A DNA stretch of 23,206 nucleotides from assembly GCA_013150955.1 (NCBI GenBank), contig JAADJD010000039.1, forward strand, positions 1 to 23,206, in the 5' to 3' direction. The DNA is from Calditrichota bacterium. Its GTDB lineage: Bacteria > Calditrichota > Calditrichia > RBG-13-44-9 > J042. A program made the position numbers and the translations under genes. The notes beneath the pieces were generated by a model, which worked only from the letters and a program-made list of their open reading frames with translations, was not told the origin of the DNA and searched no databases. Shown one piece after another: positions 14,059 through 23,206 of the stretch (its first letter is position 1; every line of letters begins with the position of its first letter).

Positions 14059-14325
14059 AACCCAGATTATGCTTTTGCCTACGAATGACACGAATGAACA
14101 CGAATAAACCCAAATTATGCTTTAGACCAAGAATGACATTAATGAACACAAATAAAACCCATAAAATACATTGGATTGTGTCTGGATGAAAATGTGTTCC
14201 AGGGTTTAATCGCGATTTTGTAGATATGTTTTGGATTCATTCGTGTGATTCGCGGTTAAATGCATTATTTGGGTTAAATCGGATGAATTCGCGTGATTCA
14301 TGGATTCATGCATGATTTCGGTTAA
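14059..14325 (+). repeat. Dispersed inverted-repeat element, copy B, with doubled ends
   Basis: Two successive left ends (14059-14098 and 14107-14146) are followed by the conserved core (14173-14234). Two successive right ends follow (14236-14275 and about 14281-14325). The second left end and the reverse complement of the first right end agree at about 31 of 40 positions, starting AACCCAAAT. No coding potential is seen. It lies between the convergent ends of the DUF2520 and trmH genes. The doubled ends suggest nested insertion of one copy in another, or a composite palindrome that is the true unit. Confidence 0.75.
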
Positions 14326-16140: not shown

Positions 16141-16340
16141 TTCAGATTTTGCATTAGACAACGAATGACACGAATGAACACCAATAAACCCAGATTATGC
16201 ATCAGACCACGAATTGCACGAAATAATCAAATACATTGGATCAGATCTGGATGAAAACTGGTTTTAGGGTATATTCGCAATTTTGTGGATATGGTTCATT
16301 TTCATTCGCGCGATTCGTGGTTTAAGGCATTATTTGGGTT
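16141..16340 (+). repeat. Dispersed inverted-repeat element, copy C
   Basis: It begins directly after the terminator T-run. Two left ends (about 16141-16182 and 16187-16221) and one right end (16301-16340) flank a more diverged core (ATACATTGGA, CTGGATGAAAA, TATTCGCAATTTTGTGGATA). The second left end and the reverse complement of the right end match at about 28 of 35 positions. It ends 15 bases before the next gene's ATG, so any promoter of that gene must be within the element or further upstream. Confidence 0.7.
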
Positions 16341-22833: not shown

Positions 22834-23206
22834 AACCCTAATCATGCCATCAACCACGAATCAAGCGAATGAATTCGGAAAAAATCAACAAAATAGCGAA
22901 TATATCCGGAAAAAACATTTTCATCCAGATAGAATCCAGTGCATTTTATTATTTTTACCCGTTGTGCTAATTCAGGATAAAGCAGATATTTTGAAAAACC
23001 GTTAAAACGGTTAAGAATCAACCAGTTACGTCATCTATTCTCCTGGCTGAAGCCAGGAGTTAATCAACATTATCATTCATTAACACCCAGATTTATCTGG
23101 GTGGACAACTCCTATAGTAACAATAATTTACAGAACCGTTTCAACGGTTTGGGTTGTCTAATTCGCACAACGGGTAATTGTATTTTATTATTTTATTGGT
23201 GTTAAT
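22834..23206 (-). repeat. Dispersed inverted-repeat element, copy D, inverted and interrupted
   Basis: The right end of the family lies at 22834-22873 in reverse orientation (AACCCTAATCATGCCATCAA, then CCACGAATCAAGCGAATGAA). The core follows (ACATTTTCATCCAG). At about 22955 the similarity stops. It resumes at about 23182 with ATTTTATTATTTTATTGG and GTGTTAAT, the reverse complement of copy A's left half. The intervening 226 bases are a different element. The outer left end lies beyond the window. Confidence 0.7.
22956..23181. mobile_element. Small non-coding hairpin element inserted in copy D
   Basis: Its ends are a 16-base inverted repeat: ACCCGTTGTGCTAATT at 22957-22972 and AATTCGCACAACGGGT at 23160-23175 (15 of 16 pair). 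ATTTTATTATTTT flanks it at 22943-22955 and 23182-23194, as a 13-base target duplication would. Inside are four hairpins in mirror order: 22997-23012 (AACCGTT arms), 23040-23059 (CTCCTGGC arms), 23084-23103 (CACCCAGA arms) and 23134-23149 (AACCGTT arms again). No open frame is present, so it would depend on a transposase encoded elsewhere, or be a REP/BIME-like array. Confidence 0.65.

Follow-up and report, generated by a model that had tools for sequence, protein, structure and literature searches.

Insertion sequences of the IS982 family are 845-1282 bp long, share the end consensus AC(N)6T(N)5TT and are flanked by direct repeats of 2-10 bp (PMC7335449), and a 240-bp IS982 MITE, MITECca01, has been published from Cardinium (PMC9769881). 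Among single-strand transposases, the motif Y...Q..HH is the signature of Y1 subclass 1.2, whose members are said generally to lack the typical structures at their termini (PMC6006769). The window analysed here, a stretch of 23,206 nucleotides from a Calditrichota bacterium (contig JAADJD010000039.1), ends in a copy of a host repeat, H, that is interrupted by a hairpin-rich element. This element has ends of the IS982 type and an interior resembling hairpin arrays that adjoin Y1 genes in other genomes. The features of the locus are:

22957-23175, plus strand: whole element, assigned as a non-autonomous IS982-type MITE of 219 bp from ~40 copies, their alignment and the target-duplication table
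22957-22972, plus strand: left terminal inverted repeat ACCCGTTGTGCTAATT, fitting the IS982 consensus AC-N6-T-N5-TT (PMC7335449)
23160-23175, minus strand: right terminal inverted repeat ACCCGTTGTGCGAATT, in its minus-strand reading (PMC7335449)
22997-23012, no strand: hairpin 1, AACCGT-TAAA-ACGGTT, with TRAA loop polarity
23040-23059, no strand: hairpin 2, CTCCTGGC-TGAA-GCCAGGAG, with a TRAA loop
23084-23103, no strand: hairpin 3, CACCCAGA-TTTA-TCTGGGTG, with a TTYA loop, inverted unit
23134-23149, no strand: hairpin 4, AACCGT-TTCA-ACGGTT, with a TTYA loop, inverted unit
22834-22956, plus strand: left part of host repeat H (copy D), from BLAST against other H copies in the window and genome; maps up to H125
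23176-23206, plus strand: right flank, host repeat H from H106, the same sequence as at the ends of C58, C34 and C59

An earlier, sequence-only reading of this DNA had proposed an insertion into another repeat with true terminal inverted repeats and four hairpins, and these observations held. Similarity to H is interrupted and uninterrupted (empty) H copies exist; the inverted ends extend over 18 bp at 94% complementarity (22955-22972 / 23160-23177); and all four hairpins were found. The insert measures 219 bp, not 226 bases as first counted. Of the mirror order that had been claimed for the hairpins, the outer AACCGTT pair stands, whereas the inner stems differ in sequence and are mirrored in loop polarity only: the loops run TRAA, TRAA and then TTYA, TTYA, giving two inverted two-hairpin units. 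No transposase gene lies within the element. Its folds were strong both as RNA (z -8.3) and as DNA (z -7.1), with none of 200 shuffles equalling the native sequence in either case, and an Rfam search of the window returned no match.

Searches of the window's own genome yielded about 40 places with strong matches, full or partial, and at ~20 of these both ends are present; these counts are approximate, several contigs ending within a copy. Counts in the genome were 50 for the 11-bp end ACCCGTTGTGC, compared with 6 for the reversed control, and 53 for the hairpin AACCGTTNNAACGGTT, compared with none for its control. With about 40 genomic places and end and hairpin counts far above their controls, the repeat family is not a product of chance. 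Among the 50 AACCGTT matches listed, 49 fall within element copies, and the remaining one (C22:93416) belongs to a truncated copy, interrupted in its turn by repeat H. In this list, the hairpins of the genome are confined to the MITE or its fragments and do not occur as self-standing dispersed units in the manner of REPs and REPINs. Hairpins scattered singly without the ends, which the earlier reading had named as the finding that would overturn it, were thus not seen among these matches; related arrays without these ends do exist in other genomes. Neither the element nor an IS982 transposase was found in a same-genus genome and two same-family genomes, and blastn against phages and plasmids gave no matches.

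Both 16-bp ends of the MITE (ACCCGTTGTGCKAATT) fit the IS982 consensus AC-N6-T-N5-TT. Within the same genome, the IS982 transposase model NF033520 of NCBIfam was exceeded twice over its cut-off (182 and 176 bits). An IS982 element of ~1.01 kb in contig C14 has the ends ATCCGTTGTGCTAATAAAA / TCCCGTTGTGCTAATTAAA and a frameshifted gene, and lies 0.7 kb from a MITE copy; in contig C4, ACCCGTTGTGCTAATAAAA adjoins an IS982 transposase gene that the end of the contig truncates. Over 15 bp, ACCCGTTGTGCTAAT is identical to the IS982 end in C4, and the ends of the C14 element differ by 1 each. The earlier reading had suggested looking for a transposase gene flanked by the same ends; an IS982 gene beside matching or nearly matching ends is present at two sites, frameshifted at one and truncated by the contig at the other; no intact full-length IS982 copy was found in the genome. 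Exact direct repeats of at least 7 bp, AAACCTC, AAACAATGA, AATGTTAA and CAATTTT among them, flank 14 of 46 candidate end pairs, compared with 29 of 2070 pairs with swapped flanks. Exact target duplications of 7-10 bp were seen in 10 own-genome copies; the window copy is without one. The ends of the C14 element and the MITE, the ~1.01-kb length and the duplication sizes all agree with the published IS982 ranges (PMC7335449).

Because the ends match both the resident IS982 and the published consensus, and because copies carry 7-10 bp target duplications, we assign the insert with high confidence to the non-autonomous IS982-type MITEs, a known kind of element. This removes the earlier suggestion of a new small element class as far as the mobile unit is concerned: its ends and target duplications are those of IS982, the transposase is encoded in the genome, and IS982 MITEs of ~240 bp have been published (PMC9769881). 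An IS200/IS605 element would have neither terminal inverted repeats nor a target duplication; this one has both. Only the terminal 15-16 bp are common to the MITE and the resident IS982, and descent of the MITE from it by internal deletion is for that reason not shown. The IS982 transposase was not detected in ten related genomes. The genomes G007 and G031 contain elements with these ends, yet the transposase was undetected in their drafts.

Repeat H is the main landing site of the hairpin element. It is a high-copy repeat of ~175-190 bp with long similar inverted ends (ACCACGAATYACRCGAATGAA-like) and resembles a separate MITE-like family. Its copies in the window are:

2293-2426, 14145-14275, 16221-16340 and 22834-22956: copies of repeat H

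Mapped on H, normal element insertions show overlaps of 7-10 bp, mostly at H115-125, with further insertion points at H72-78 and H106-115 and with both relative orientations represented; the target duplications often fall in the AT-rich middle of H. Two clean copies, L020 and L065, lie outside H and have their own duplications. The earlier reading had also said that it would be overturned by an ancestral insert sitting at one place in other host copies. Most insertions do share the hot spot at H115-125, but the two orientations, the other positions on H and the copies outside it do not fit such an origin. The reverse also occurs: at L060, L188 (C22:93416), L069 and L079, the hairpin element is itself interrupted by H, and each family is thus found nested in the other.

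The flanks of the window copy depart from this pattern. The 13-mer ATTTTATTATTTT, which had been taken for a target duplication, abuts the element on the left only; on the right, 6 bp (AATTGT) intervene. On H, the left flank runs as far as H125 and the right one starts back at H106, an imperfect overlap of 20 bp compared with the normal 7-10 bp. In sequence, the left flank resembles that of the copy in contig C50; the right one is found without a difference at the copy in C58, where the duplication is a clean 10 bp. The gap at the right end and the origin of the two flanks from different H insertion points show that the 13-bp repeat is no target duplication. The last 91 bases of the window (23116-23206) recur unchanged at the end of contig C58, and the first 91 bp of contig C34 are likewise exactly those of C59. 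This sharing is probably an assembler k-mer junction (k = 91), with the window ending at a repeat branch, and the two flanks of the window copy probably reflect either recombination between copies or an assembly junction.

Among 25 copies of the element, hairpin stems vary by 2.4% and other positions by 9.6%, a difference reached by none of 167 circular shifts of the mask. No covariation beyond one pair was found within the genome, where the copies are too similar and changed stems mostly break. A covariance model built from the hairpin interval alone, without the ends, detected related arrays in 9 of the 191 other genomes searched, seven belonging to the same class and two from beyond it. When these matches were aligned, changes on both sides were seen at 25 of 28 pairs, and 98% of cells were paired (25-45% when slid; 0 of 500 shuffles), generous figures from an alignment that was fitted to the structure and includes both strands of near-palindromic arrays. 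The hairpins inspected in the related arrays are perfect palindromes with different letters. Loop polarity and covariation together reveal inverted hairpin pairs with a conserved structure, as in REPs and REPINs, and the likeness to REP/IS200-type units drawn by the sequence-only reading was right.

A pattern search of named genomes extended the arrays to candidate division KSB1, to Zixibacteria and, with all four hairpins present, to a Terriglobia MAG; exact hairpin-3 patterns were found in neither genome contigs nor viral contigs. The array of the Terriglobia MAG, which is acidobacterial (L223, 3980-4170), has the same loop polarity and is without IS982 ends; no Y...Q..HH gene was found nearby in the 8 kb examined. 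Arrays likewise lack IS982 ends in G014, G016, G028, G040, G094 and Zixibacteria, and in G007 the array is carried with IS982 ends. The G014 genome holds a three-hairpin array in a 168-bp unit bounded by other ends, with 69 end sites compared with 0 for the control:

L096, L148, L192-L221: 168-bp elements of G014 with ends GGGYGCATGWCAAATTG

One exact 8-bp duplication was seen for this element; it is of low complexity and suggestive only. The arrays of G040 and G035/G031 show weak end similarities only, and a search for terminal inverted repeats around those of G016, G028 and G094 gave no convincing result. Elements of 269-272 bp in G031 have IS982-type ends, 7-bp duplications and interiors with other hairpins. 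The internal hairpins of this family (L091-L094) are GTTCCTATGGAAC, ATTCCTATCGGAAT, CGTCCTTACAGGACG and GCTCCGATGGAGC. Hairpin-rich interiors recur in different elements; independent capture is not proven.

Related arrays adjoin IS200-like Y1 genes in G013 (KSB1), at two loci in G040, and in G014, and in G013 and G040 they stand on both sides of the gene. The Y1 proteins beside these arrays carry Y...Q..HH, and that of G013 passes the NCBIfam cut-off for IS200/IS605, not the REP-associated one. Hairpins shared between the two flanks were found at 8 of 12 Y...Q..HH loci from nine genomes, compared with 0 of 780 random spans of similar size, a rough control in that the spans come partly from other genomes:

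L159, L162, L164, L169, L170, L174, L175, L184: Y...Q..HH IS200-like Y1 loci with shared hairpins on both sides

In the genome of the window, no Y1 gene flanked by these hairpins was found; its two Y1 loci have other palindromes. Dense palindrome arrays at Y1 genes are expected of classical REP loci. The two own-genome Y1 genes, L103 (C35) and L104 (C13), lie in dense arrays of other palindromes (CCCCACGCAACGCGTGGGG; GCGCGGGCTTTACGCCCGCGC). With moderate confidence, we regard the interior of the element as REPIN-like, its hairpin array being a relative of the arrays that adjoin IS200-like Y1 genes.

An IS982-type MITE with a Y1-related array inside it is most simply accounted for by capture as cargo, and the element is probably a non-autonomous IS982 MITE carrying a REPIN-like hairpin array. 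The end sequences suggest that the DDE transposase of IS982 would recognise the MITE in trans and move it as double-stranded DNA. The hairpin array may have begun as the substrate or product of a Y1 (HUH) enzyme, to be captured later between IS982 ends; in this genome, it would since have been copied only as IS982 cargo. The array might instead be mobile by itself through single-stranded DNA and an IS200-like Y1 enzyme of subclass 1.2 type, with the IS982 ends an accident of one lineage. The arrays elsewhere that lack IS982 ends, and those next to Y1 genes, speak for such mobility; nevertheless, it is decidedly unlikely to explain the element, whose 50 listed own-genome hairpin matches occur only within the TIR-bounded unit or fragments of it, whose target duplications are not made by the Y1 single-strand mechanism, and whose genome yielded no matching Y1 gene. 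Somewhat less unlikely, but still improbable, is a structured RNA, or an element acting on transcripts as a terminator, stabiliser or insulator, that was spread by the MITE and kept for the function of its hairpins. Its less variable stems and strong RNA fold favour this reading; on the other hand, stem changes in the genome mostly break pairs and do not compensate, the window has no Rfam match, and the copies lie largely inside another repeat, H.

Two further explanations concern the relationship with H and the window copy itself. If H and the insert had been amplified jointly as one composite repeat, the position H115-125 would be common to many copies, as it is; the occurrence of both orientations and several insertion points on H, of L020 and L065 with duplications of their own, and of many empty H copies refutes joint amplification as a general account and makes it very improbable, and a minority of copies could have been co-amplified. 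There is about an even chance that part of the window copy is an artefact of assembly, with a right flank that belongs to another copy. The flank mismatch and the exactly 91 bp held in common with C58, and by C34 with C59, point that way, but real recombination between copies would look alike, and the family does not rest on the window copy.

Taken as IS982 cargo, the array places an apparent substrate of an HUH single-strand transposase within the double-strand end system of a DDE enzyme, and two mobile systems appear to have merged in one tiny element. The association between the hairpins and Y1 is the most interesting lead, and it points to hairpins as a candidate substrate of a Y1 subclass for which no DNA partner has been described. 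We tentatively suggest, at somewhat below even chances, that Y1 enzymes of subclass 1.2 type have REP-like substrates (paired TRAA-loop hairpins in inverted two-hairpin units), and that such arrays have spread over several phyla and have repeatedly become cargo of MITEs, in different families, with IS982 ends in G000 and G007 and with another TIR and a possible 8-bp duplication in G014. If the array does recur in different MITE families, the question arises whether hairpins help MITEs to persist.

With the terms used, no publication on REP arrays lying within MITEs was found. The nearest structural parallels are the REP dimers GTAG-15 of Anabaena and CGTC-1 of H. neapolitanus, in which, according to the available extracts of the source (PMC3733652), palindromes are also regularly nested in another inverted-repeat sequence; unlike here, those extracts tie the outer palindrome to no IS family and describe no target duplication. 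With the REP, BIME and REPIN sequences of Y1 enzymes (RAYT, TnpA-REP), the window element shares short hairpins of conserved structure, inverted pairs, variation from genome to genome and, in other genomes, related arrays flanking a Y1 HUH transposase gene. It differs from them in that the array of its own genome has moved within TIRs and with target duplications, that the cognate Y1 gene is absent, and that the array-associated Y1 genes have the Y...Q..HH signature of subclass 1.2 (PMC6006769). Compared with IS982 MITEs, it is unusual for an interior four-hairpin array that is known elsewhere without IS982 ends, and it shares only its terminal 15-16 bp with a parent IS that was not seen intact. 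In all other respects compared, it is like IS982 and MITECca01 (PMC9769881): its ends start with AC and fit AC-N6-T-N5-TT, its direct repeats lie within 2-10 bp, it is geneless at ~220-240 bp with an IS982 transposase in the same genome, and its frequent targets are other mobile elements.
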